From positions 186,001 through 250,000 of the forward strand of contig NZ_JAATJI010000001.1 in the NCBI RefSeq assembly GCF_011927825.1: a stretch of DNA of 64,000 nt. Reading direction: 5' to 3'. Positions 10,892-42,245 of this stretch are shown here, in pieces (positions within the stretch are counted from its first letter, which is position 1; every line of letters begins with the position of its first letter). Origin of the DNA: Polymorphobacter fuscus (GTDB lineage Bacteria; Pseudomonadota; Alphaproteobacteria; Sphingomonadales; Sphingomonadaceae). The position numbers and the translations under genes were made by a program. The notes under the pieces were generated by a model. The model worked only from the letters and a program-made list of their open reading frames with translations, was not told where the DNA came from and did not search any database.

Positions 10892-11689
10892 ATGTCGAAG
10901 ATCAAGCTCATCATGGCCGCTGCGGTCGCAGCGGCATCCCTGTCCTCCACTGCAGCGCATGCTGTCATCGAAACCTTTGCGACGTTCAGCAGCCCGACAT
11001 CGGCCGCCAATGTGCGCTGGGTCAACAACGGCGTCGGCAAAACCTCGTCGGTCACCAACACCTCGACCGGCACCGGCGGCTATTTCTACACCATCGGCTC
11101 CGCGACCGGTACGGTTCCGGCCTCGACCATCGTGGCATTCAACTTCCTCCAGCCGGTTCTGGCGACTGTTAGCCCGATTTCGGCTGACTTCTTCATGGAC
11201 ATTACGGTGACCAACACGCCGGCATCGACCATGGGCGGGTTCAGCATCCAGATCGTTCCGACTGGCTCTTTCTCCTTCACGAGCCGTCAGGCCGTGACCG
11301 TCGGCAATGTCACCTATGCAGCGGGCTCCAACCTGCTGACCGGCACCTTCTCGGCCGGGTCGATCTTTGGTGCTTCGACGTCGGGTTCGTTTTCGGGCAA
11401 TTCGGACACTGGCGTCCTGACCTATACGTCGGACTTCCTCGATTTCGACGCCACCGCGGCGCGTGATTTCTCGATGTCGATGACCTCGATCACGCCGTCG
11501 ATCTTCCGCACCACCGGTCGTGCACTGCGCACCTTCACCGGTGTTGCCGGCGGCAGCTTCTCTTCGGATCCGGCGCCGATCGTCAATGCCGTTCCCGAAC
11601 CGCAGGTCTGGGGCATGCTCGTCGTCGGCTTCGGCCTTGTCGGCGTCCAGGTTCGCCGCCGCGCCCGCAACGGCAGCGTCGTCGCCTGA
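10892..11689 (+). CDS. Secreted PEP-CTERM sorting-domain protein
   Basis: A 265-residue protein with a clear signal peptide (MSKIKLIMAAAVAAAS...AAHA, cleavage near residue 24). The Ser/Thr/Gly-rich beta-type body has no recognised catalytic motif. The C-terminal sorting tail has the PEPQVWGM motif near residue 236, then a hydrophobic helix (LVVGFGLVGV) and an arginine cluster (RRRAR). Such proteins are cleaved by the exosortase and released to the surface or the exopolysaccharide matrix. Its position directly after the polysaccharide genes, and the RpoN promoter, support a matrix or floc role, which is inferred. A strong hairpin terminator follows at 11706. Confidence 0.9.
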   Translation: MSKIKLIMAAAVAAASLSSTAAHAVIETFATFSSPTSAANVRWVNNGVGKTSSVTNTSTGTGGYFYTIGSATGTVPASTIVAFNFLQPVLATVSPISADFFMDITVTNTPASTMGGFSIQIVPTGSFSFTSRQAVTVGNVTYAAGSNLLTGTFSAGSIFGASTSGSFSGNSDTGVLTYTSDFLDFDATAARDFSMSMTSITPSIFRTTGRALRTFTGVAGGSFSSDPAPIVNAVPEPQVWGMLVVGFGLVGVQVRRRARNGSVVA

Positions 11690-11705
11690 TCGTCTGACGC
11701 ATCGC

Positions 11706-11745
11706 AAAAAGGGCCTGCCGGCGGCGACGTCGGCAGGCCTTTTTG
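11706..11745 (+). terminator. Rho-independent terminator after the PEP-CTERM gene
   Basis: GCCTGCCG (11713-11720) pairs with CGGCAGGC (11731-11738). The stem is extended by AAAAAGG on one side and CCTTTTTG on the other. The T-run lies at the 3' end on the plus strand, 17 bases after the stop codon. The flanking A-run would let it work in both directions. Confidence 0.88.
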
Positions 11746-12166
11746 TGTCTGGTGCCTGCGGACATGGAGGCTGTCGCCTGCGCGCAACTGCATCGGCCGC
11801 AATGCCGGGACACCGCGCAAGCGCTGCCGTGGCTCCGTATTTCGGGCCGGGTCGCGCACGGCCTTCGCTTCGGCCGGAGGGACGGGTGCGCGAATCCCTG
11901 CAGTTTGTGGCAAAATGACCCCGCCGCCGTAGCGCGTGCGACAGGCAGAGGCTGCGCCCCGATTCCCGCTTTCCGATCGAATGGCAACACCATGGTCGTT
12001 CGAGCTTGATTCCGGACATATTCGTGCCCTAAACGGCATCTAACGATAATGAAGCGTCGTCATGCCATATGGCGGGATCATTTCGATGTGATCGCTTGGC
12101 CCCGCCGGGGCCGCACGTTATGGCTGTTGGGCGGGGATTGCGCGCAGGGGATCAAGGGCAAAACCA
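11746..12166. other. Intergenic region before the propionyl-CoA synthase operon
   Basis: About 420 bases with no credible gene. The first part (to about 11980) is GC-rich, with short open frames on both strands that show no family resemblance. The last 160 bases include an AT-richer patch near 12005-12055 that could hold the operon promoter, and AAGGGC about eight bases before the ATG at 12167. No strong -35/-10 pair, operator dyad or riboswitch fold stands out. Confidence 0.5.
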
Positions 12167-15100
12167 ATGACCGATATTGCAACTCTGGCGGCGGATGCGC
12201 GGCCGGCGCGCCTCGAGCCCGTCAGCAACCCGATCCGGACGCGGGCCGATTGGGACGATCTGCGAGCGGCGGTGGTCGCCGATCCGGGTGCCGTCCATGG
12301 CGCGATCGCGGCGCGCAACCTGCACTGGCTGGTCCCGCTTGCGGATGGCACATCGGCGTGGCTCGCCTTCGACGGCACGGGCTGGTCGGGTTGGGACGCA
12401 GCCACCGCCGCGCCCGTCACCCCCGACCTGGCCGCCGATTTTGCCCCATGGACGCGGGCCTTCAACGATGACGACGCGCCGCATTTCCGCTGGTTCGATG
12501 GCGCGCGGACCAATTGCGGCTTCAACGAGGTCGATCGGCATGTCCTCGCCGGCCATGGCGACGAGACCGCCTTCATCTTCGAAGGCGATCGCTGGGACAT
12601 GGCGCAGGACCAGGGCCGCGGCGCGCCGGTCGATTGCTATGGTGTCAGCCGCAAGCGGCTGCTGCTCGAAACCGCCAAATGCGCGATCGCGCTGAAGAAC
12701 CTGGGGCTCAAGGCCGGCGACCGTATCGCGCTCAACATGCCCAACATCCCGGCGCAGCTCTACTGGACCGAAGCGGCCAAGCGGATCGGCGTGCTCTACA
12801 CCCCGGTGTTCGGCGGCTTTTCCGACAAGACGCTTTCGGACCGCATCCATGACGCCGGCGCGCGGATCGTCATCACCGCCGATGGCGGCTATCGCATGGC
12901 GCAGATCGTGCCGTTCAAGACCGCCTATACCGATCCGGCGCTCGACAATTATGTCCCGGTGCAGGTGGCGTTGCGGCTGTTGGCCGATCGGCTCGCCGGT
13001 GACGATCTCGGCCTGTCGGCGGAGATGGCGGCGGCGATGGTCGAAACCGTCAGCGCGACGCTGAAGGGCGAAGTCACCGTCGAGCGCGGCGATGTCATGC
13101 GCGGCGTCGGCCGCGCGCTGGCCGAACTGGGCAAGGCGGGAACCGTCGATTCGACCGCGGCGGCGCGAATCCGCATCGCGGTCGCCGAAAGCCTGGTGGC
13201 GACGCCGCCGCGCGTCGACGCCGTGGTCGTCGCGCGCCACACCGGCCAGCCCGATATCGTCTGGCGCGACCGCGACCTGTGGAGCCACGACCTGACCAAC
13301 AAGGCGCTGGCCGAAATCCTCGCCGCCGCCGGCGTTGCTTCGGAGGCCGAACTGCTGGCACTGCCGGACACCGATTTCGTTCGCGCCATCTGGGCGGCAG
13401 CGCCGGTGCTGCCGGTCGATGCCGAATATCCGATGTTCTTCATCTACACCTCGGGGTCGACGGGCAAACCCAAGGGCGTCGTCCATGTCCATGGCGGTTA
13501 CGCCGCCGGGATCGCCGAAACGATGAAGGTGGCGTTCGATGCGCGGCCCGGCGACGTGCTGTATGTCGTTGCCGATCCGGGCTGGATCACCGGCCAGAGC
13601 TACATGATCTCCGCCCCGCTGCTGACGCGCGTGACGACGGTGCTGGGGGAGGGGGCGCCGGTGTTCCCGCATTCGGGGCGCTTCGCCGCGATGATCGAGC
13701 GGCACGGCGTCACCATCTTCAAGGCCGGCGTGACCTTCCTGAAGGCGGTGATGAGCGACCCGCAGAACCTGAAGGACATCCAGAATTACGACATGGGCGG
13801 CCTGCGCGTCGCGACCTTCTGTGCGGAGCCCTGCTCGCCGCCGGTGCAGGCGTTCGGCATGGCGAATGTGACGCCGCAATATATCAACAGCTATTGGGCC
13901 ACGGAACACGGCGGCATCGCCTGGACGCATTTCTACGGCAACGACGATTTCCCGCTTGCCGCCGATGCGCGGACCTTCCCGCTGCCCTGGATCGTCGGTG
14001 ATGTCTGGGTGGAGGACGAGGCCGGCGACGGCCAGGCGGTGGCGCCGCTGGCGCGTGCCGGCGGCGGCGGCGGCGTCAACTGGCGCCGCGCCGATGTGGG
14101 CGAAAAGGGCGAAATCGTCATCGCCGCGCCCTATCCCTATCTGGCGCGCACCGTCTGGGGCGACCCCGAGCATTTCACCGTCGTCGATGGCAGTGTGGCG
14201 GCCGGCTGGAAGGGCGACGCCGAGCGTTGGGACAGCAATTACTGGCGGCGCTGGAATGGCGTCTGGGCCTATACCCAGGGCGATTTCGCCGTGCGGCATG
14301 CCGATGACGGCTTTTCGCTCCATGGCCGGTCGGACGATGTCATCAATGTCTCGGGCCACCGCATGGGCACCGAGGAGATCGAAGGCGCGATTTTGCGCGA
14401 CAAGCAGCTCGACCCCGACAGCCCGCTCGGCAATGTCCTGGTGGTCGGTGCGCCGCACCGCGAAAAGGGGCTGACCCCGATCGCGTTCGTGACGGCAGCG
14501 CCGGGCCAGACTCTGACGCGCGACGACTTCCGCCGCCTGTCTGACCTGGTGCGGCAGGAAAAGGGCGCCGTTGCGGTGCCCGGTGATTTCATCGAGGTCA
14601 GCCAGTTCCCTGAAACCCGCAGCGGCAAATATATGCGGCGGATGGTGCGGGCGATCGTGGAGGGCGGCGACGTCGGCGATGTGACGACGCTGCGCAACCC
14701 CGAAAGCCTCGATGAGCTGAAAAAGGTGATCGGCGACTGGCAGCGGCGGCAGAGCCTGTCCGAAGACCAGCAGATCTTCGACCGCTATCGCTATTTCCGC
14801 ATCCAGTACAACGAAGTCGCGCCCGGGCAGAAGGTTGCGACGGTGTTCGTCACCAACCCGCCGGTCAATGCGCTGAACGAGCGCGCCATCGACGAGCTGG
14901 TCATCGTTGTCGAGCATCTGTCGCGGCGCGACGATGTCGTCGCCGTCGTCTTCACCGGCGACGGCACGGCGAGTTTTGTCGCCGGTGCCGATATTCGCCA
15001 GTTCCTCGACGAAATCCACACGATCGAGGAAGCGCGGGTGCTGCCCAACAACGCCCAGCTGGCGTTCGCGCGCATCGAAAGCATGGGCAAGCCGTGCGTC

Positions 15101-17671
15101 GCCGCGATCCAGGGCGTCGCGCTCGGCGGCGGCATGGAATTCGCGCTGGCCTGCCATTGGCGGGTGGCGGAGGCGCATGCGCGCTTCGGCCAGCCCGAAA
15201 TCCGGCTGCGCCTGCTGCCCGGCTATGGCGGCACGCAAAGGTTGCCGCGCCTGCTCGCCGAAAAGCGCGGGCCGGAGGGGCTGCGCGATGCGCTCGACCT
15301 CATCCTTGGCGGCCGCAGCATCGATGGCGAAGCGGCGCTGGAAATCGGCCTTGTCGAAACCCTTGCGACCGGTGCCGATGACGCGCTCGGCCTCGCCCAT
15401 GCCGCGGTGCGCGAGTTCGTTCGCCATGGCGAGAACAGCAAGCTCGGCCGCGTCTGGGCGGAACGCCGCAAGGCCGCCAAGGGCGCCTGGCAGCAGCCGG
15501 CGCATGTCGATCTCGACGAAGCGCTGGCGGATGACTTTGTCCAGCGCATTCTGCGCCAGCTCGAATGGGCCGGCCGCGCGACCGCCGGCGAACGCGCCAT
15601 CGCTGCGATCCGCGCCGGCTGGACCGAGGGCATGGCCGCCGGGCTGGAACGCGAGGCGCAGCTGTTCGCCGAAGCCGTGGTCGACCCGCAGGGCGGCAAG
15701 ACCGGCATTCGCGAATTCCTCGACAAGAAGAGCCCGCCGCTGCCGGTGCGCCGCAACGGCGTCTTCATCGACAGCGAGCATGACGCCCGGGCCGAGCGGC
15801 TGGAAGCGGCCGGCGACCTGTTGCCGGTCGGCGCACCCTTCTTCCCCGGCGTGACGGCGATCCCTGGCCACCAATATGCCTTTGGCATTGCGCGCGACGC
15901 CGATACCGGGGCGCCGCGGTTCGGCCAGCCGGCGACGCATGAGCGCGAGCTGATCGTGCCGGTGCCGGCACCGGAGCCGAACGAGGCACTGGTCTATCTG
16001 CTGACGTCGGAGGTCAACTTCAACGATATCTGGGCGTTGACCGGGATTCCGGTGTCGCCCTTCGATGGCCATGAGGAAGATTTCCAGACGACCGGGTCGG
16101 GTGGCCTGGCATTGATCGCGGCGCTGGGCTCCGAAGCGCGGGGCGAGGGCCGTCTGAAGGTCGGCGACATGGTCGCGGTCTATTCCGGCACGTCGGATCT
16201 GCTCAGCCCGGCGGCCGGCCGGGACCCGATGTTCGCCGATTTCAGCATCCAGGGCTATGAAACCAAGACCGGCAGCCACGCCCAGTTCCTCACCGTCCAG
16301 GCGCCTCAGCTGCATGCCGTTCCCGGCGACCTGACGCTCGAACAGGCGGGCAGCTATATCCTCAACCTCGGCACGATCGTGCGCTGCCTGTTCACGACGC
16401 TGGAAATCGTCGGCGGCAAGACGATCTTCATCGAAGGCTCGGCGACCGGGACCGGGCTCGATGCGCTGAAGTCGTCGAAGGCCAGCGGGCTGGCGGTGAC
16501 CGGGCTGGTGTCGAGCCCGGCGCGCGCGGAGTTCGTGACGCTGAAGGGCGCGGTGGGCGCCATCGACCGGACCGATGCGCGCTTTGCCGCGCTTTACACG
16601 CCGGTTCCCGATGGGGCGGAGGCGTCGCGGGCGTGGGAGGCAGCGGGCGCACCGCTCGTCGCGGAATACAAGCGCCTCAACAATGGCAAGCTGGCCGATT
16701 ATGCCGTCAGCCATGCCGGCGAGACGTCGTTCCCGCGCAGCTTCCAGCTGCTCGCCGAAGGGGGCAAGCTGGCCTTTTATGGCGCGTCGTCGGGCTATCA
16801 CCTCGGCTTCATGGGCAAGCCAGGGGCATCGACCGCCGAGGCGATGCTGCAAAAGGCCGGTGCCCGGGGCGGCGAGGCGATCCTGATCTTCTACGGTCCC
16901 AATTCGACGGCGCTCGCCGACGAAACCGGGCTGGAGATGATCGAGGCGGCGCGCGGCATCGGCGCCCGCACCGTCGTGGTCACCACCACCGATGGCCAGC
17001 GTGAATTCATCCTGTCGCTGGGTTTCGAAGATGCCGTGGCGGGGGTCGTGTCTCTGGAAGGCATCAAGCGGCGGGAGGGGGCCAATTTCGAATGGCCCGA
17101 CACCATGCCGCGTTTGCCGGTAGCGCGTGCCGATATCGAGGCCTTCCGCGAAGCCGTGCGCGAATTCCAGGACAAGACGCTCAAGCCGTTCGGCAGTGCC
17201 GTCGGCAAGTTGCTGCGATCCCCCGACAACCCGCGCGGCGCTCCCGACATCGTGCTGGAACGTGCCGGGCAGGACACGCTCGGGGTCACCTCGGCGCTGG
17301 TCAAGCCCTTCACCGGGCGGATCGTTTATGCCGAGGACATGGCCGGGCAGCGCTATAATTTCTACGCGCCGCAGGTGTGGACGCGGCAGCGGCGGATCAT
17401 CATGCCGACCGCCGAAATCCTCGGCACGCATCTGTGCAATGCCTATGAAGTGACGCGGATGAACGACATGGTCGCAGCCGGGCTGCTCGACGTAACCGAG
17501 CCGACGGTGGTGCCATGGGAGGGATTGCCCGAAGCGCACCAGTCGATGTGGGACAACCGCCATTCGGGCGCGACCTATATCGTCAACCATGCGCTGCCGG
17601 CGTCGGGGCTGCGCAGCCGTGACGAACTGTACGAAGCCTGGGCGGCCGAAGCCCCTGCGACCTCGAACTGA
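12167..17671 (+). CDS. pcs: Trifunctional propionyl-CoA synthase
   Basis: An 1834-residue fusion, close in size to the Chloroflexus enzyme. Domain 1 (about 1-870) is an AMP-forming acyl-CoA ligase with YTSGSTGKPKG near 426-436, WATEHGG, GRSDDVINVSGHRMG near 720 and the catalytic lysine in RSGKYMRR at Lys821. Domain 2 (about 875-1130) is an enoyl-CoA hydratase with both catalytic glutamates, in ALGGGMEFAL and FGQPEIRLRLLPG. Domain 3 (about 1250-1834) is a zinc-free MDR reductase of crotonyl-CoA reductase type (EVNFNDIWALTG, FIEGSATGTG). Net reaction: 3-hydroxypropionate + ATP + CoA + NADPH to propionyl-CoA + AMP + PPi + NADP+ + water, with acrylyl-CoA held inside the protein in the characterised homologue. 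All three domains look intact. The malonyl-CoA reductase gene starts 11 bases later. Confidence 0.95.
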   Translation: MTDIATLAADARPARLEPVSNPIRTRADWDDLRAAVVADPGAVHGAIAARNLHWLVPLADGTSAWLAFDGTGWSGWDAATAAPVTPDLAADFAPWTRAFNDDDAPHFRWFDGARTNCGFNEVDRHVLAGHGDETAFIFEGDRWDMAQDQGRGAPVDCYGVSRKRLLLETAKCAIALKNLGLKAGDRIALNMPNIPAQLYWTEAAKRIGVLYTPVFGGFSDKTLSDRIHDAGARIVITADGGYRMAQIVPFKTAYTDPALDNYVPVQVALRLLADRLAGDDLGLSAEMAAAMVETVSATLKGEVTVERGDVMRGVGRALAELGKAGTVDSTAAARIRIAVAESLVATPPRVDAVVVARHTGQPDIVWRDRDLWSHDLTNKALAEILAAAGVASEAELLALPDTDFVRAIWAAAPVLPVDAEYPMFFIYTSGSTGKPKGVVHVHGGYAAGIAETMKVAFDARPGDVLYVVADPGWITGQSYMISAPLLTRVTTVLGEGAPVFPHSGRFAAMIERHGVTIFKAGVTFLKAVMSDPQNLKDIQNYDMGGLRVATFCAEPCSPPVQAFGMANVTPQYINSYWATEHGGIAWTHFYGNDDFPLAADARTFPLPWIVGDVWVEDEAGDGQAVAPLARAGGGGGVNWRRADVGEKGEIVIAAPYPYLARTVWGDPEHFTVVDGSVAAGWKGDAERWDSNYWRRWNGVWAYTQGDFAVRHADDGFSLHGRSDDVINVSGHRMGTEEIEGAILRDKQLDPDSPLGNVLVVGAPHREKGLTPIAFVTAAPGQTLTRDDFRRLSDLVRQEKGAVAVPGDFIEVSQFPETRSGKYMRRMVRAIVEGGDVGDVTTLRNPESLDELKKVIGDWQRRQSLSEDQQIFDRYRYFRIQYNEVAPGQKVATVFVTNPPVNALNERAIDELVIVVEHLSRRDDVVAVVFTGDGTASFVAGADIRQFLDEIHTIEEARVLPNNAQLAFARIESMGKPCVAAIQGVALGGGMEFALACHWRVAEAHARFGQPEIRLRLLPGYGGTQRLPRLLAEKRGPEGLRDALDLILGGRSIDGEAALEIGLVETLATGADDALGLAHAAVREFVRHGENSKLGRVWAERRKAAKGAWQQPAHVDLDEALADDFVQRILRQLEWAGRATAGERAIAAIRAGWTEGMAAGLEREAQLFAEAVVDPQGGKTGIREFLDKKSPPLPVRRNGVFIDSEHDARAERLEAAGDLLPVGAPFFPGVTAIPGHQYAFGIARDADTGAPRFGQPATHERELIVPVPAPEPNEALVYLLTSEVNFNDIWALTGIPVSPFDGHEEDFQTTGSGGLALIAALGSEARGEGRLKVGDMVAVYSGTSDLLSPAAGRDPMFADFSIQGYETKTGSHAQFLTVQAPQLHAVPGDLTLEQAGSYILNLGTIVRCLFTTLEIVGGKTIFIEGSATGTGLDALKSSKASGLAVTGLVSSPARAEFVTLKGAVGAIDRTDARFAALYTPVPDGAEASRAWEAAGAPLVAEYKRLNNGKLADYAVSHAGETSFPRSFQLLAEGGKLAFYGASSGYHLGFMGKPGASTAEAMLQKAGARGGEAILIFYGPNSTALADETGLEMIEAARGIGARTVVVTTTDGQREFILSLGFEDAVAGVVSLEGIKRREGANFEWPDTMPRLPVARADIEAFREAVREFQDKTLKPFGSAVGKLLRSPDNPRGAPDIVLERAGQDTLGVTSALVKPFTGRIVYAEDMAGQRYNFYAPQVWTRQRRIIMPTAEILGTHLCNAYEVTRMNDMVAAGLLDVTEPTVVPWEGLPEAHQSMWDNRHSGATYIVNHALPASGLRSRDELYEAWAAEAPATSN

Positions 17672-17682
17672 AAGAACCGACG

Positions 17683-20600
17683 ATGGGCAAGACCACCACC
17701 GCCGCAACAACTGCGCCTGTCGGCCGCCTGGCCGGCAAAGTCGCGCTGATCACCGGTGCCGCCGGCAATCTGGGGCAGAATATCGCCCGGCGCTATCTGG
17801 CCGAAGGCGCCACCGTGGTGTTTTCCGGGCGCGACCGCGCGCGGACCGACACGGCGCGCGAGGCGGCAGTGGCGGCGGCAGAGGTCGACAGCGATCGCGC
17901 CTCGACGGTGGTCATCGACGGGGCCGACGCCGAGAGCGTGCGCGCCGGCATCGCCGAAGTCGTCGCGCGCCATGGCCGGATCGACATTTTGGTCAACAAT
18001 GCCGGGTCGGCCGGCCCCAAGCAGCCACTGGAAAACCTGCCTCTGAGCACCGCCGATCTGGCGGCCCTGCAGGCCGCGGGCAGCACCGACAGCGAGACAG
18101 TGGGCGACGCCGCGCGCAACATCATGGTCGTCGCCTGGAACATGGTGCGCGCCGCCGCCGGCGCGATGGGGGAGGGCGGATCGATCATCAACGTGTCGAC
18201 GATCTTCTCGCGCACCGAATATTATGCGCGCGCTGCCTATACCGTTCCCAAGGCGGCGATGAACGCGCTGTCACGCGAACTGGCGACGGAGCTGGGGCCG
18301 CGCGGCATCCGCGTCAATTTGCTGTTCCCGGGGCCGATCGCCAGCGAGCGCATCCGCAACGTCTTTGCCGCCATGGACGGCCTGCGCGGGGACGAAGCCG
18401 GCGCGACGGCGAACCATTTCTTCGACCTGATGGCGCTGGAACGCAGCGTCGATGGCGCTGCCCGCGCCAAGACCTTCCCGACCCCCGCCGACATTGCCCA
18501 CACCTGTGTCTTCCTCGGCTCCGATGAATCGGCGGCCTTCTCCGGCCATGATTTCGAAGTCACCCATGGCATGGCGGTCCGGCCCGAATCGCGATCGACC
18601 TTCACCTCGCGGCCGACGATGCGGTCGATCGACGGCGGCGGGCTGGGGGTGCTGGTCAGCGCCGGCAGCCAGCTCGACGACGCCATCGCGATCGCCCGTG
18701 TGCAGGCCGATGCGGGTGCGGAGGTACTTCTCGGCTTTCATGCCAGGGCGGCCGCCGAGGACGCGACAGCGCAGCTGGCGGACACGCCGCGCATTCACGT
18801 CGTGCATTTCCCCCGCCACGACAATCTCGTCATGGACCGGGTGCTTGCCGAGTTCACCGCCACCTGCTGCCCGGTGACCGGCGCCATCATCCTGCCGACG
18901 CGCGCCGCCGGCTATTTCACCGGCGCGATTGGTGACGCCAGCGACGCGCAGGTCGAACGCTTTGTCGATGACGAGCTGGAAGCCAATATCGCCGTGGCGC
19001 GCACGCTCAGCCGCTATTGGAAGCGGCACGACGGCCTGCTCCACGATCCGCGCTTCGTCTTCGTGTCGAACGGCGATGATGGCGCCGGCAACGCCTATGC
19101 CAATCTGCTGCGCGCCGCATTGGAGGAGCTGATCCGCGTCTGGCGCGACGAAAGCGCCGTCGACGCTGCGCATGGCCGGCGCGACAAGCCCGAATGGGGC
19201 AACCAGATCGTCCGCTACACCAATGCCGAGCCCGAAAGCCTGTCGTTCGCCGCCGGCCAGGCAGCGCGGATCGTGCTCAAGGAGCGCAAGATCGACCCCG
19301 TCAATCTGTACCTGCCCGAAAGCATCGCCGAAGCGACCGGCGCGCGGCGCGCAATGGTGGGGACGACCGAGAACATCACCGGCCTTCACCTCGGCAAGGT
19401 GGCGCTGATCACCGGCGGCTCGGCCGGCATCGGCGGCCAGGTCGCGCGGCTGCTGGCGCTCGCGGGGGCCAAGGTGATGATGGTCGCCCGCCGAGAAAGC
19501 GAGCTGGCGGCGGCACGCGAACGCATCGTCGGCGAGCTGGAAGACATCGGCTTTTCGGGCGTCGAGCGCCGGGTGCGCACCCTCGCCAATGTCGATGTCG
19601 CCGACATGGCAAGCCTGAAGCATGCCGTCGACGAGACGATCAAGGCATTCGGCCACATCGATTATCTCATCAACAACGCCGGCGTGTCGGGGGCCGAGGA
19701 AATGGCCGTCGACATGGACCTGAAGGCGTGGCGCAACACGCAGAACGCCAATCTCATCTCCAACTATGCGCTGATGCACATGGTCGTGCCGATGATGAAG
19801 GCGCAGGGCTCGGGCTATATCCTCAACGTGTCGAGCTATTTCGGCGGGGAGAAGTTTCTCGCCGTCAGCTACCCCAACCGCACCGACTATGCGGTGTCGA
19901 AGGCCGGGCAGCGCGCCATGGTCGAATCGATGGCGCGGCATCTGGGGCCGGAAATCCAGATCAACGCGATTGCGCCGGGGCCAGTGGATGGCGACCGGCT
20001 GGCGGGGCTGGGCGGCAAGCCCGGGCTGTTCGAACGGCGCGGCCGGCTGATCCTGGAGAACAAGCGGCTCAACGCCGTCTATGCCGCAACCATCAAGGCG
20101 GTACGCCGCGGCGAGAATGTCGAGACGATATTGGGCCGGTTGGCACGCAACGACACGGTGCAGTTGAGCCACGACAAGGCGGTGCCGCAGGAACTGCGCG
20201 ACCTGGCGCTGGCGTGCGCGCGCGAAGGCGATGAAAGCTGCTGCTGGGATCGGTACCTGCTGACACCGGCGCTGGCGGCAAAGCTGGTCAAGCGGCTGCG
20301 GCTCGGCGGGTTTTTCCTGGGGCTGGGCTGGGCGAGCAAGCCCGATGACGGCTGGCTGCTGCGCTTCCCGCCCGATGACATGCCGTGGCTGCCGGCGGCG
20401 CAGATCGGCCGTGAGGCTGCCAAGGTCCGGTCGGGGGTGCTGTCGCAGCTGCATCTCGGCAAGATGCCGACCGAAGGCGAAGTCGCGCAGGCGACGGTGT
20501 TCTTCCTTGCCGACCGCGCCGTGTCGGGGGAAACCTTCATGCCGTCGGGTGGGCTCAACGTCGAACGCTCGACGACCGAGCGCGAGTTGTTCGGCAGTCC

Positions 20601-21333
20601 CAGGCAGGAGCGCGTCGACGCCATGGCGGGCAAGACGGTCTGGCTGGTCGGCGAACATCTGGTCGACTACCTCGCCGAAAGCGCGCGCAGCTTCCTGGCC
20701 GCCGGCGTGGCCCGGGTCGTGCTGCTGCCGATGACGGCGGCGGGCGGTGCGGCGCTGGCGACGGCGATCGACGGCGGTAACCGGGTGGAAACGCTGGTCG
20801 TCGGCGACGCCATCGAGGACAGCCTCGACGCGGCGCTCACGCAATGGGGCCGGCCGACGACGATCGTGTCGACGCCGTTCAAGCCGCTGCCCGATGCGCT
20901 GTTCGATGGCCCGACGCCGCTCGATGGCGCCGGCTTTGCCGATGTCGTGGAAACCAACCTGACGCATCATTTCCGCGTCGCGCGCAAGGCGTCGCTGTTC
21001 GATGGCTGCCAGATCGTGCTGGTGTCGCCCGACGTGCCGATGGGGCAGGGTGGCGGCTCGGCGTTCGCACTGGCGAACTTCGTCAAGACGACGCTGCACG
21101 CCTTCACCGCGACGATCGCGGTCGAGAACGAGCGGCTGGTCCATGACGTGCCGGTCAACCAGATCAACCTGACACGCCGCGTCCGCTCCGAGGAACCGCG
21201 CAACGCCGCCGAGCATGACGAGGAGGTCAAGCGCTTCGCCCGCGCCGTGCTGCTGGCGGGAACGCCGCTGCCCGATGCCGAGGATTCGCGCTATCGGGCG
21301 CGGGTCTATCGCGGCGTGTCGATCACGGTCTGA
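17683..21333 (+). CDS. mcr: Bifunctional malonyl-CoA reductase (two SDR modules)
   Basis: 1216 residues, nearly the length of the 1219-residue Chloroflexus protein. The N-terminal half has a short-chain dehydrogenase with TGAAGNLG near residues 24-31 and a Tyr186-x3-Lys190 pair (AYTVPK); in Chloroflexus this half reduces malonate semialdehyde to 3-hydroxypropionate. The C-terminal half has TGGSAGIGG near 577-585 and Tyr736-x3-Lys740 (DYAVSK); in Chloroflexus it reduces malonyl-CoA to the semialdehyde. Each SDR is followed by a degenerate SDR-like stretch (for example 310-540, and 980-1216 starting near GKTVWLVGEHL), as in the known enzyme. Both catalytic pairs are present, so activity is expected with NADPH. 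With pcs it forms a complete malonyl-CoA to propionyl-CoA module. Confidence 0.95.
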   Translation: MGKTTTAATTAPVGRLAGKVALITGAAGNLGQNIARRYLAEGATVVFSGRDRARTDTAREAAVAAAEVDSDRASTVVIDGADAESVRAGIAEVVARHGRIDILVNNAGSAGPKQPLENLPLSTADLAALQAAGSTDSETVGDAARNIMVVAWNMVRAAAGAMGEGGSIINVSTIFSRTEYYARAAYTVPKAAMNALSRELATELGPRGIRVNLLFPGPIASERIRNVFAAMDGLRGDEAGATANHFFDLMALERSVDGAARAKTFPTPADIAHTCVFLGSDESAAFSGHDFEVTHGMAVRPESRSTFTSRPTMRSIDGGGLGVLVSAGSQLDDAIAIARVQADAGAEVLLGFHARAAAEDATAQLADTPRIHVVHFPRHDNLVMDRVLAEFTATCCPVTGAIILPTRAAGYFTGAIGDASDAQVERFVDDELEANIAVARTLSRYWKRHDGLLHDPRFVFVSNGDDGAGNAYANLLRAALEELIRVWRDESAVDAAHGRRDKPEWGNQIVRYTNAEPESLSFAAGQAARIVLKERKIDPVNLYLPESIAEATGARRAMVGTTENITGLHLGKVALITGGSAGIGGQVARLLALAGAKVMMVARRESELAAARERIVGELEDIGFSGVERRVRTLANVDVADMASLKHAVDETIKAFGHIDYLINNAGVSGAEEMAVDMDLKAWRNTQNANLISNYALMHMVVPMMKAQGSGYILNVSSYFGGEKFLAVSYPNRTDYAVSKAGQRAMVESMARHLGPEIQINAIAPGPVDGDRLAGLGGKPGLFERRGRLILENKRLNAVYAATIKAVRRGENVETILGRLARNDTVQLSHDKAVPQELRDLALACAREGDESCCWDRYLLTPALAAKLVKRLRLGGFFLGLGWASKPDDGWLLRFPPDDMPWLPAAQIGREAAKVRSGVLSQLHLGKMPTEGEVAQATVFFLADRAVSGETFMPSGGLNVERSTTERELFGSPRQERVDAMAGKTVWLVGEHLVDYLAESARSFLAAGVARVVLLPMTAAGGAALATAIDGGNRVETLVVGDAIEDSLDAALTQWGRPTTIVSTPFKPLPDALFDGPTPLDGAGFADVVETNLTHHFRVARKASLFDGCQIVLVSPDVPMGQGGGSAFALANFVKTTLHAFTATIAVENERLVHDVPVNQINLTRRVRSEEPRNAAEHDEEVKRFARAVLLAGTPLPDAEDSRYRARVYRGVSITV

Positions 21334-21365
21334 GCCGCGGGCGGCGATCGTGCGCCGCCCCGCGA

Positions 21366-22424
21366 TCAGAGGGTCAACGGACCATGGTCGAGGCGCGGCA
21401 AAACGTGCCGCGCGAACAGGTCGCCTTCGGCGGCGTGCGGATAGCCCGACAGGATGAACGCATCGATCCCCATTGCCTGATAGGCGTGGAGCTTGGCGAG
21501 CACCTGGTCGGGGTTGCCGACGATGGCGGCGCCGCAGCCGGAGCGGGCGCGGCCGATGCCGGTCCACAGATTGTCCTCGACATAGCCGTCGCTGGCGGCG
21601 TCGCGCAGTTCGGCCTGGCGCAGCACGCCGACCGACTGCGAGTCGAGCGATTTGGCGCGGATGGCGTCGCCGGTGGCGGCGTCGAGCTTCGACAACAGCC
21701 GGTCGGCATAGGCGCGCGCCTCGGCCTCGGTATCGCGGACGATGACATGGGCGCGATAGCCGAATTTGAGCGTCCGGCCATAGGTGGCGGCGCGGGCGGT
21801 CATGTCGTCGATGATGCCCTGCACGACGGGGGTGGTGTCGGGCCACATCAGATAGACGTCGGCGGCGCGGGCCGCGGCATCGCGCGCGTCGGGGCTGAGT
21901 CCGCCGAAATACAGTGGCGGGCATTTGCCCGAGACGGTGGTAACGCCGGGCGGGTCGAGCTTGAGATTGTAATGCTCACCCTGGTGGTCGAGCGCCTCGC
22001 CGTTGAGCAGCGTCTTGAGGATCGTCATCACCTCGACGGTGCGGCCGTAGCGCGGCTTCGAGGCCAGCGTTTCGCCCGGCAGGTCCGACGAGATGATGTT
22101 GATGTTGAGGCGCCCGCCGGCGATCCGGTCGAGCGTCGCGATCTGGCGCGCCAGCTGCGGCGGCCAGGCTTCGCCGGTGCGCACCGCGAGCAGCAGCTTG
22201 ATGCGCCGGGTGAGGACGGCGATGGCGGCGGCAAAGGCGGTCGAATCGATGCCGAGCGCATAGCCCGACGGCAGCAGCACATTGTCGAAGCCGCCGGTTT
22301 CGGCGCCCAGGACAATGTCGCGGCAATGTTCGAAGCTGGATTTCAGCAGCGGGTCGGGCACGCCCAGAAATTCATAGTCGTCGTCGCACAGCGCCGAGAA
22401 CCAGCTGACTTCACATTGGGTCAT
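21366..22424 (-). CDS. LLM-class flavin-dependent monooxygenase (SsuD-like)
   Basis: A 352-residue protein of the luciferase-like TIM-barrel family, closest in pattern to alkanesulfonate monooxygenase SsuD (ARQIATLDRIAGGRLNINIISSD, PPLYFGGLSPDA, and an AIVGNPDQVLAKL segment near the end). Members use FMNH2 supplied by a separate reductase to oxidise sulfonates, dibenzothiophene sulfone, nitriloacetate or similar substrates. No reductase or sulfonate ABC transporter is encoded nearby, so the substrate is unknown. The ATG at 22424 overlaps the aldo/keto reductase stop (ATGA). The frame extends upstream, but that part lies over the reductase gene. Confidence 0.85.
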   Translation of the reverse strand: MTQCEVSWFSALCDDDYEFLGVPDPLLKSSFEHCRDIVLGAETGGFDNVLLPSGYALGIDSTAFAAAIAVLTRRIKLLLAVRTGEAWPPQLARQIATLDRIAGGRLNINIISSDLPGETLASKPRYGRTVEVMTILKTLLNGEALDHQGEHYNLKLDPPGVTTVSGKCPPLYFGGLSPDARDAAARAADVYLMWPDTTPVVQGIIDDMTARAATYGRTLKFGYRAHVIVRDTEAEARAYADRLLSKLDAATGDAIRAKSLDSQSVGVLRQAELRDAASDGYVEDNLWTGIGRARSGCGAAIVGNPDQVLAKLHAYQAMGIDAFILSGYPHAAEGDLFARHVLPRLDHGPLTL

Positions 22425-40697: not shown

Positions 40698-42245
40698 ATG
40701 ACCTGGCAGCCCGAAATCGACGAACTGTTGCAACGGCGGGCGGCGGCCCTGGGGATGGGCGGGCCGGCAAAGCTGGAAAAACAGGCAGCGATGGGGCGGA
40801 TGAATGCCCGTTCGCGGCTCGCCGCGGTCGCCGACGAGGGCAGTTTCCGGGAAATCGGCGCGCTGGCGGGCTTTGCCGCCTATGCCGACGATGGCGCGAT
40901 GCTGAGTTTCCAGCCTGCCAACTTCCTGTTCGGGCGGGCGACGGTCGATGGCCGGCCGGTGGTGCTGACCGCCGACGACTTCACCGTGCGCGGTGGCGCC
41001 GCCGATGCGAGCCTGCACCGCAAGCTGACCGATGCCGAACGGCTGGCGAGCGAATATCGCCTGCCGCTGATCCGCATGATCGAAGGCACCGGCGGCGGCG
41101 GATCGGTCCGCACCCTGGAAACAATGGGTTACACCTATATCCCCGAGATTCCCGGTTGGGAGATCATGGTCGACAATATGGCGCGGGTGCCGGTTGTGGC
41201 ACTGGGCCTTGGCCCCGTCGCCGGGCTGGGCGCCGGGCGGCAGGTGATGGCGCATTATTCGATCCTGGTCGACGGCGTGGCGCAGATGTTCGTCGCCGGC
41301 CCGCCGGTGGTGGCGGCCGCCGGCGAGATCCGCACCAAGGAAACGCTGGGCGGCGCGCATATCCATGCCGCCAATGGCGCCATCGACGACCGGGTGGACA
41401 GCGAGGCCGAGGCCTTTGCCCGGTTGCGGCGGTTCCTGTCCTATCTGCCGAGCTCGGTCGAGGAGCTGCCGGCGCGTGGGGTGGTGAAGGACAAGCGCCG
41501 CAAGGGCGAGGACTGGCTGGCCAGCGCAGTGCCGCGCGACGGGCGCAAGCTGTACCCGATCCGGCCGATCGTCGAGGCGATCGTCGACCGTGACAGCTGG
41601 TTCGAGATCGGCCGCGAATGGGGGCTGGGGGTGGTCACCGGCCTTGCCCGGATCGACGGCTGGCCGGTGGCGGTGATCGCGTCCAACCCCGAAAGCCTGG
41701 GCGGATTGTGGACCGCGGCGACGGCGCGCAAGGTCGAACGGCATGTCGACCTGGCCGATACCTTCCATCTGCCGGTCGTCCATCTGGTCGACAACCCGGG
41801 CTTCCTGATCGGCCGCCGGGCCGAGGATGAGGCGACAATTCGCTGGGGTTCCAGGGCGTTAGCAGCCATATATCAAGCATCGGTACCCTGGGTATCGGTC
41901 ATTTTGCGCAAGGCCTATGGCATGGCGGGCAGCGGCCATGCGCCGGCCGACCGCTTTCGCTGGCGGATGGCCTGGCCATCGGGCGACTGGGGGTCCTTGC
42001 CGATTTCGGGCGGGCTGGAAGCCGCCTATCGCGCCGAGCTGGAGGCGAGCGAGGACCCGGCGGCGCGGCTGGCCGAGATCAAGGCGCGGCTGGAACGGGT
42101 GCGATCGCCATTCCGCACGGCCGAACATTATGGCGTGGAGGCGATCATCGACCCGCGCGACACGCGCGCCGAGCTGTGCGAGTTCGTCAACCTGGCGCAG
42201 CGGGCGCTGGTGCCGGGGCGCAAGGGGCGCGGGTTGCGGCCCTGA
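40698..42245 (+). CDS. Acyl-CoA carboxylase carboxyltransferase (beta) subunit
   Basis: A 515-residue crotonase-fold carboxyltransferase of the propionyl-/acetyl-/methylcrotonyl-CoA carboxylase type. The two oxyanion-hole segments are seen as RMIEGTGGGGSVRT (N-lobe) and VDNPGFLIGRRAE with RKAYGMAGSG (C-lobe). It needs a biotin carboxylase and biotin carrier subunit, and neither is encoded in this window. If it is a propionyl-CoA carboxylase it would take the product of the pcs-mcr pathway to methylmalonyl-CoA. Substrate choice cannot be read safely from the sequence, and the gene is 19 kb from that operon. Confidence 0.88.
   Translation: MTWQPEIDELLQRRAAALGMGGPAKLEKQAAMGRMNARSRLAAVADEGSFREIGALAGFAAYADDGAMLSFQPANFLFGRATVDGRPVVLTADDFTVRGGAADASLHRKLTDAERLASEYRLPLIRMIEGTGGGGSVRTLETMGYTYIPEIPGWEIMVDNMARVPVVALGLGPVAGLGAGRQVMAHYSILVDGVAQMFVAGPPVVAAAGEIRTKETLGGAHIHAANGAIDDRVDSEAEAFARLRRFLSYLPSSVEELPARGVVKDKRRKGEDWLASAVPRDGRKLYPIRPIVEAIVDRDSWFEIGREWGLGVVTGLARIDGWPVAVIASNPESLGGLWTAATARKVERHVDLADTFHLPVVHLVDNPGFLIGRRAEDEATIRWGSRALAAIYQASVPWVSVILRKAYGMAGSGHAPADRFRWRMAWPSGDWGSLPISGGLEAAYRAELEASEDPAARLAEIKARLERVRSPFRTAEHYGVEAIIDPRDTRAELCEFVNLAQRALVPGRKGRGLRP

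Follow-up and report, generated by a model that had tools for sequence, protein, structure and literature searches.

A propionyl-CoA synthase and malonyl-CoA reductase operon that accompanies reaction-centre genes in sphingomonads

Two adjacent genes of the sphingomonad Polymorphobacter fuscus, pcs and mcr, encode proteins that, as judged by sequence comparison, are genuine and intact members of the propionyl-coenzyme A (CoA) synthase (Pcs) and bifunctional malonyl-CoA reductase (Mcr) families. They lie in a stretch of 64,000 nucleotides, here called the window (positions 186001-250000 of contig NZ_JAATJI010000001.1, or C1, of assembly GCF_011927825.1; the whole genome is 3.36 Mb). We consider it probable that the pair serves an accessory, light-supported route from acetyl-CoA and two bicarbonates to succinyl-CoA, which would co-assimilate carbon and act as a sink for NADPH. 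Three associations make this operon worth following: its tie to the genes of the photosynthetic reaction centre, its linkage in some genomes with the acetyl-CoA carboxylase gene accA, and the company of a Calvin cycle operon in the same genome.

The pcs–mcr pair and its products

Both genes are on the forward strand: pcs (12167..17671) codes for 1834 residues and mcr (17683..21333) for 1216, and in the open-reading-frame table 11 bases separate the end of the pcs stop codon (17671) from the mcr start (17683). A preliminary description of the window had read this arrangement as one operon of two giant multidomain proteins, together making up a full module from malonyl-CoA to propionyl-CoA in a genome of sphingomonad type; the coordinates, lengths and spacing stand, and both proteins fall with Pcs and Mcr by full-length similarity. 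It had also reported a lysine and two hydratase glutamates in Pcs, and two tyrosine–lysine pairs in Mcr, and we recovered every one of these residues, the lysines and tyrosines at the same numbers and the glutamates, which it had left unnumbered, at the positions given below.

Over residues 25-1829 Pcs matches PDB entry 6eqo (1850 residues) with 2866 bits; the depositors name this structure acetyl-CoA synthetase, and we take it to be the propionyl-CoA synthase of Erythrobacter NAP1. The Pfam domains AMP-binding, AMP-binding_C, ECH_1/ECH_2 and ADH_zinc_N mark three regions, all on the forward strand. First, the predicted 3-hydroxypropionate-CoA ligase region (about residues 1-870; 12167..14776, with approximate borders) holds the two AMP-binding domains, a YTSGSTG motif at residue 427 and an RSGK motif that begins at residue 818 and so places the lysine at 821. 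Second, the predicted enoyl-CoA hydratase region (about residues 888-1200; 14828..15766, again with approximate borders) holds ECH_1/ECH_2 and the glutamates 991 and 1011, from the GGGMEF and FGQPEI motifs. Third, the predicted enoyl-CoA reductase region (about residues 1216-1834; 15812..17668) holds ADH_zinc_N; its residues 1216-1548 match the crotonyl-CoA carboxylase/reductase structure 4gi2, and it scores 189 bits with the NCBIfam model crot-CoA-red, under the cut-off of 379. Pairwise identity is 63-76% to the Pcs of 11 other loci and 73% to that of Aerophototrophica crusticola. With fused ligase, hydratase and reductase regions, about 1800 residues and a close solved Pcs, the protein has the make-up of this family.

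For Mcr, the structures matched along the whole protein are 8hi4 (1144 bits) and 8hjw (1105 bits), and Pfam finds in it two short-chain dehydrogenase (SDR) stretches. The N-terminal half (17719..19326, forward strand), with Tyr186 and Lys190, matches 6k8v and 8hi6; the C-terminal half (19327..21330, forward strand), with Tyr736 and Lys740, matches 6k8s (1063 bits), 8hi5 and 8a30. We assign the conversion of malonyl-CoA to malonate semialdehyde to the C-terminal half, and the reduction of the latter to 3-hydroxypropionate to the N-terminal half. A seven-row alignment with two partial sequences of Chloroflexota type shows no variation at any of the four residues; the window protein is 50% identical to each of these two sequences. 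The organisms behind these two sequences and the matched PDB entries are our assumption; in particular, 6eqo and 6k8s presumably come from aerobic anoxygenic phototrophs of the Erythrobacter/Porphyrobacter type. With about 1220 residues, two SDR halves and both catalytic Tyr-x3-Lys pairs, the protein has the make-up of Mcr.

An Mcr tree of 47 rows was built by a quick method and rooted at the midpoint; it holds only Mcr (no other SDR proteins), with the two Chloroflexota rows partial, extra N-terminal residues retained in three rows (L012, L137 and L140), and the fragments L033-L036 and six mcr genomes without a locus left aside. The proteobacterial rows split from the two Chloroflexota-type rows with an SH-aLRT support of 100%, and 21 genomes of the window's own genus (g1) form one clade, likewise at 100%. 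It is full-length similarity, and not this tree, that places the window protein inside Mcr.

Distribution of mcr and its tie to the reaction centre

We scored mcr as present at an E-value of 1e-100 or better and reaction-centre genes by the Photo_RC domain, in two overlapping samples: 148 genomes comprising P. fuscus and its relatives, and 397 genomes of the family from 96 genera. The smaller sample has mcr in 27 genomes, Photo_RC in 36 and both in 25, the exceptions with mcr alone being G005 (75% complete) and G044 (67%). The larger has mcr in 39, Photo_RC in 76 and both in 37, with G044 again and G269 (88%) as exceptions. Among the 360 good assemblies (completeness of 90% or more, contamination of 5% or less), 36 carry mcr and 72 Photo_RC, and all 36 mcr genomes have Photo_RC. 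The naive chance of such an overlap, with genomes treated as independent of ancestry, is about 1e-29; by genus, 11 of the 12 genera with mcr are among the 31 of 96 with reaction-centre genes (chance 9e-6 if genera are independent). P. fuscus itself has pufL, pufM and pufC, the gene set of an anoxygenic phototroph and the one that the preliminary description had advised looking for.

Within the genus, mcr is present in 23 of 24 sampled genomes, P. fuscus included; the remaining one, G020, is 100% complete and has neither mcr nor reaction-centre genes. Together with the single clade in the tree, this makes the pair look like a settled, vertically kept trait of the genus. The preliminary description had confined such pairs to Chloroflexaceae and a few aerobic bacteria, which was too narrow, given mcr in 39 of 397 genomes of one family, in 12 of its 96 sampled genera and in nearly every sampled member of the genus.

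A wider contig scan, whose poor patterns say nothing on absence elsewhere and which had no Chloroflexota genomes in its sample, gave among 80 listed loci two that match whole Mcr: L037, from a gammaproteobacterial metagenome-assembled genome, and L038, from A. crusticola. Both of these genomes also carry pufLM. The other 78 loci were dropped, their matches of 28-38% identity covering SDR stretches only. Plasmid records, 72,556 in all, contained no match at E 1e-50, and viral records gave three weak SDR matches only (24-31% identity).

In eleven genomes chosen by eye, with mcr and puf on a single contig, the two lie 63-122 kb apart in five (G024, G286, G214, G349 and G176) and 0.45-2.45 Mb apart in six. 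As a separate observation, in genus g7 six of the seven reaction-centre genomes (G029, G181, G242, G290, G390 and G450) have four Photo_RC matches each and not two, which suggests two sets of pufLM.

Linkage of pcs, mcr and accA

Fifty-four mcr genomes were available for gene order, namely 27 from the sample of relatives, 25 from the wider draw, and those of L037 and L038; 43 have at least 500 bases upstream of mcr and 44 at least 1 kb downstream, the remainder having a short contig or no locus. Directly 5' of mcr lies pcs in all 43. On the downstream side, 10 of the 44 have accA, which codes for one of the carboxyltransferase subunits of acetyl-CoA carboxylase, beginning no more than about 64 bases after the mcr stop, in several without a gap (distances being taken from tblastn ends); in one further genome, G153, it lies 2.1 kb beyond mcr. 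The ten comprise five genomes of genus g30, two of g41, one each of g22 and g123, and A. crusticola (L038 6225-10934; L189 12124-16722, from the genome of L133; L029, L034, L130, L131, L134, L135, L136 and L138). AccA scores above its NCBIfam cut-off in three of these eleven, namely two adjacent cases and G153, the others being identified by tblastn. None of the genomes of the P. fuscus genus examined has accA behind mcr. Its direct placement there in 10 of 44 ties the pair to acetyl-CoA carboxylation. Further, in the tree the Mcr of Aerophototrophica sits with g41 among the sphingomonad rows (SH-aLRT 99, quick method), and the simplest reading of this nesting is a transfer of the pcs–mcr–accA block from lineage to lineage.

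Partner genes and the proposed route

Genes resembling pccB and pccA lie at C1:77-83 kb, the pccA-like one with a PCC_BT domain (Pfam); methylmalonyl-CoA mutase is present with 1195 bits (NCBIfam cut-off 876); and acetyl-CoA carboxylase subunits are marked by PF01039 matches at C1:2007 kb and C1:1595 kb. Both the propionyl-CoA carboxylase that the preliminary description had invoked and the mutase that it had proposed to search for are thus represented, and with them the step from propionyl-CoA to succinyl-CoA, the carboxylase by its Pfam domains. On this footing, the branch from acetyl-CoA to succinyl-CoA is predicted to be encoded in P. fuscus. A further carboxyltransferase-like gene stands in the window itself (40698-42245; 254 bits with Carboxyl_trans), 19 kb 3' of mcr; its product scores only 250 of 999 bits with mmdA and is therefore not the usual PccB.

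In the route that we favour, acetyl-CoA carboxylase would form malonyl-CoA from acetyl-CoA; the C-terminal half of Mcr would reduce this to malonate semialdehyde and the N-terminal half would carry it on to 3-hydroxypropionate, at a cost of 2 NADPH; and Pcs would, in one chain, activate, dehydrate and reduce 3-hydroxypropionate to propionyl-CoA with ATP, CoA and NADPH. PccAB and methylmalonyl-CoA mutase would then yield succinyl-CoA. The high cost in ATP and NADPH could be afforded when light supplies ATP, and external 3-hydroxypropionate might also enter. We infer the activities, the direction and the dependence on light from the genes, their families and their company.

That last entry point invites a different emphasis, in which the module mainly assimilates external 3-hydroxypropionate or malonate-derived compounds and CO2 uptake is incidental. 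By established chemistry Pcs alone suffices for such assimilation, the propionyl-CoA carboxylase genes and the mutase would serve it equally, and the nearest genes 3' of mcr, for alkanesulfonate-monooxygenase-like and aldo-keto reductase proteins, do not speak for anaplerosis. However, this leaves unexplained why mcr is kept with pcs in every genome where the upstream side could be read, why accA follows it in a part of them, and why no well-assembled sampled mcr genome is without reaction-centre genes; we regard it as unlikely.

It is also unlikely that the module makes propionyl-CoA as a building block, whether for odd-chain lipids or for a stored copolymer, while using up excess NADPH with no net gain of carbon. 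Each propionyl-CoA would consume 3 NADPH by established chemistry, and passages of one source describe CO2 fixation as relieving over-reduction in purple non-sulfur bacteria (PMC12999727); yet the carboxylase genes and the mutase open a road onward to succinyl-CoA.

Least probable by far is a place in a complete autotrophic 3-hydroxypropionate bicycle. Acetyl-CoA carboxylase subunits, Mcr, Pcs, the propionyl-CoA carboxylase genes and methylmalonyl-CoA mutase are all encoded, as such a cycle would need, but the HpcH/HpaI family (PF03328) has only two genes in this genome. The first is CitE/RipC-like and below both cut-offs (CitE, 162 of 443 bits) and, by eye, stands among polysaccharide and flagellar genes; the second is HpaI/GarL-like and below its cut-off (HpaI, 165 of 369 bits), near sugar-acid genes. 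Neither lies, by eye, among CoA-transferase or dehydratase genes, unlike the cluster that we take to exist in Chloroflexus. The CitE-like lyase could act on malyl- or citramalyl-CoA; a clear malyl-CoA lyase was not found in the genome, both PF03328 genes being below their best NCBIfam cut-offs, and a complete bicycle is for this reason unlikely. The preliminary description had likewise held that a full bicycle was not shown, a caution that stands.

Several observations weigh against the light-supported route to succinyl-CoA that we prefer. First, the co-occurrence figures ignore shared ancestry, and mcr is absent from 39 of the 76 reaction-centre genomes, which means that phototrophy can do without it. 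Second, the accA of P. fuscus is not beside mcr but at C1:2007 kb. Third, a need to replace the glyoxylate shunt was considered and rejected: isocitrate lyase is present (1071 bits, NCBIfam cut-off 446), near it lies a malate synthase frame (466 bits against a cut-off of 594.5, the frame running off the end of the stretch), and isocitrate lyase (PF00463) occurs in all 27 mcr genomes of the sample of relatives, in one as a fragment only. With the shunt present, the branch is not needed in its stead and is best seen as an accessory, presumably used when ATP and NADPH are cheap. Fourth, PpsR-type regulation by light was tried and set aside, the TGTN12ACA pattern occurring upstream of pcs in 3 of 30 cases against 1.8 expected from mononucleotide shuffles, which is no enrichment.

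With these points weighed, the light-supported route remains our preferred account, and the pair, with 11 of its 12 genera also having the reaction centre and with accA at times in the same operon, is a direct candidate for part of the light-stimulated CO2 uptake that, according to passages of one source, is reported in some aerobic anoxygenic phototrophs (PMC12999727).

A Calvin cycle operon in the same genome

In P. fuscus (G000), the genes fbp, prk, cbbA, cbbL, cbbS and cbbX follow one another in this order at C1:1146083-1151841. After cbbX come complex I genes, hemN, bchE, a gene for a B12-type ribonucleotide reductase (below cut-off), ubiT, ubiU and ubiV, the whole region covering C1:1146083-1176322 (L155 from 6084, L166 to 17823). 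NCBIfam cut-offs are exceeded by fbp, prk, cbbL, cbbX, hemN, bchE, ubiT, ubiU and ubiV, with 792.7 bits for the large subunit of ribulose-1,5-bisphosphate carboxylase/oxygenase (RuBisCO), 505 for phosphoribulokinase and 503 for CbbX. There is no NCBIfam match for cbbS, which Pfam identifies as RuBisCO_small (118 bits); cbbA and five complex I proteins have Pfam matches, and the remaining complex I genes were assigned by eye. CbbL carries the catalytic lysine motif GLDFTKDDE, and 1bxn is its best solved match. A Calvin gene set is present, with a form I large subunit with its lysine motif, a small subunit and phosphoribulokinase. The region looks like an island for fixing CO2 and for making pigment and quinone without oxygen. 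Of 13 genomes tested, PF00016 was found in P. fuscus only, and of the 397 it is found in 12, of which five have true large subunits (E below 1e-133; G000, G047, G087, G191 and G220), the remaining matches (E 1e-63 to 1e-67) resembling RuBisCO-like proteins. Among those five, only G000 and G220 are in both the mcr and the Photo_RC lists.

In G220, of another genus, the Calvin operon has a different gene order and a divergent LysR-type gene; it shares its contig with pcs–mcr, about 6 kb from fbp to the end of mcr and 11 kb from cbbL to mcr (L180 7298-16828; L181 3055-12044). Identity to the CbbL of P. fuscus is 79% for G220, 77-84% for the three remaining genomes and 87% for copies on rhizobial plasmids. 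The two sphingomonads may possibly have gained RuBisCO separately. A second PF00016 match in P. fuscus (L156 8832-10100; C2:335 kb), a RuBisCO-like protein whose best model is OiaX, below cut-off, was rejected as RuBisCO. By eye, this gene appears to sit in a sugar-acid gene cluster.

A bolder possibility, which we consider rather unlikely, is that the host is a photoautotroph, perhaps facultatively anaerobic, and not an ordinary aerobic anoxygenic phototroph. It would have two light-driven CO2 routes, the Calvin cycle and the half-bicycle from acetyl-CoA to succinyl-CoA, with oxygen-free synthesis of bacteriochlorophyll, haem and ubiquinone, while across the family pcs–mcr would be an accessory trait tied to light, not seen in good assemblies without the reaction centre. 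Aerobic anoxygenic phototrophs are described in passages of one source as unable to grow autotrophically or to make RuBisCO (PMC12654162). Whether obligate heterotrophy holds for every phototroph of the family could be tested on a genome such as this, with its Calvin genes and its genes for making pigment and quinone without oxygen, and the photoautotroph, if real, would be an exception in a group described as strictly photoheterotrophic.

Upstream region and gene neighbourhood

A candidate promoter or operator block lies upstream of pcs (11995..12044, forward strand), with its core GACATATT at 12015, 152 bases 5' of the start codon. The core pattern GACAYRNT recurs 138-212 bases 5' of the codon matching Pcs residue 21 in all 14 genomes of the genus for which upstream sequence is available, and at a comparable place in none of 16 other pcs loci (two match near -495, and one has only 309 upstream bases). 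GACATAWT occurs 4 times in the window, counting both strands. A sigma-70 promoter scan of 11600-21500 gave three weak sites, none of them upstream of pcs.

The pair has a G+C fraction of 0.68, near the window value of 0.67. On its 5' side are a polysaccharide-export gene, an exosortase gene and a gene for a 265-residue protein without a Pfam hit; the two genes named above on its 3' side are on the opposite strand, and both products fall below their best-model cut-offs. None of the six flanking window genes on either side recurs near pcs–mcr in eleven other loci compared, among which accA recurs in three, an ABC-transporter ATPase in two and one further gene in two. Long minus-strand open frames overlie pcs (12152-17710, 1852 codons) and mcr (18271-21924, 1217 codons), and are taken as shadow frames at 67% G+C.

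Comparison with known systems

The pcs–mcr pair itself is not new: both families are known, and passages of an earlier study report key bicycle enzymes, though no full pathway for fixing carbon, in the phototrophic sphingomonads Porphyrobacter ULC335 and Erythrobacter NAP1, and in ULC335 a daytime rise of the 3-hydroxypropionate bicycle genes (PMC10674011). Parts of other sources use the Erythrobacter NAP1 Pcs as a propionyl-CoA synthase (PMC11599936), ascribe an incomplete bicycle to aerobic anoxygenic phototrophs in a bloom (PMC11089705), and, for glacier lakes, place Sandarakinorhabdus among potential mixotrophs and associate anoxygenic photosynthesis with non-Calvin fixation (PMC10239486). 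In the titles and abstract openings of open-licence papers that our searches covered we found no report of the restriction of mcr to reaction-centre genomes or of the accA linkage, and our claim of novelty for these is a weak one.

The pair of P. fuscus resembles that of the Erythrobacter/Porphyrobacter type in domain order, length, key residues and phototrophic host, and in having key bicycle enzymes without the full pathway, as far as passages of the study above describe it (PMC10674011). It differs in that the genus of P. fuscus has its own conserved block upstream of pcs and, in the genomes examined, no accA behind mcr, and in that the P. fuscus genome adds a Calvin cycle operon. Section 10 of the source cited above for light-stimulated CO2 uptake lists Polymorphobacter with pufLM and form IC RubisCO, in agreement with the sphingomonad reaction centre and RuBisCO seen here; in its passages on the genus, pcs, mcr, bchE and ubiTUV are not mentioned (PMC12999727).

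Chloroflexus aurantiacus has the same two multifunctional enzymes as P. fuscus. There the second cycle of the bicycle is complete, whereas here no clear malyl-CoA lyase was found. In the portion of the source that gives them, the locus numbers of mcr (Caur_2614), pcs (Caur_0613) and accA (Caur_1647) in C. aurantiacus are distant from one another (PMC3150298), whereas in P. fuscus pcs and mcr form an operon.

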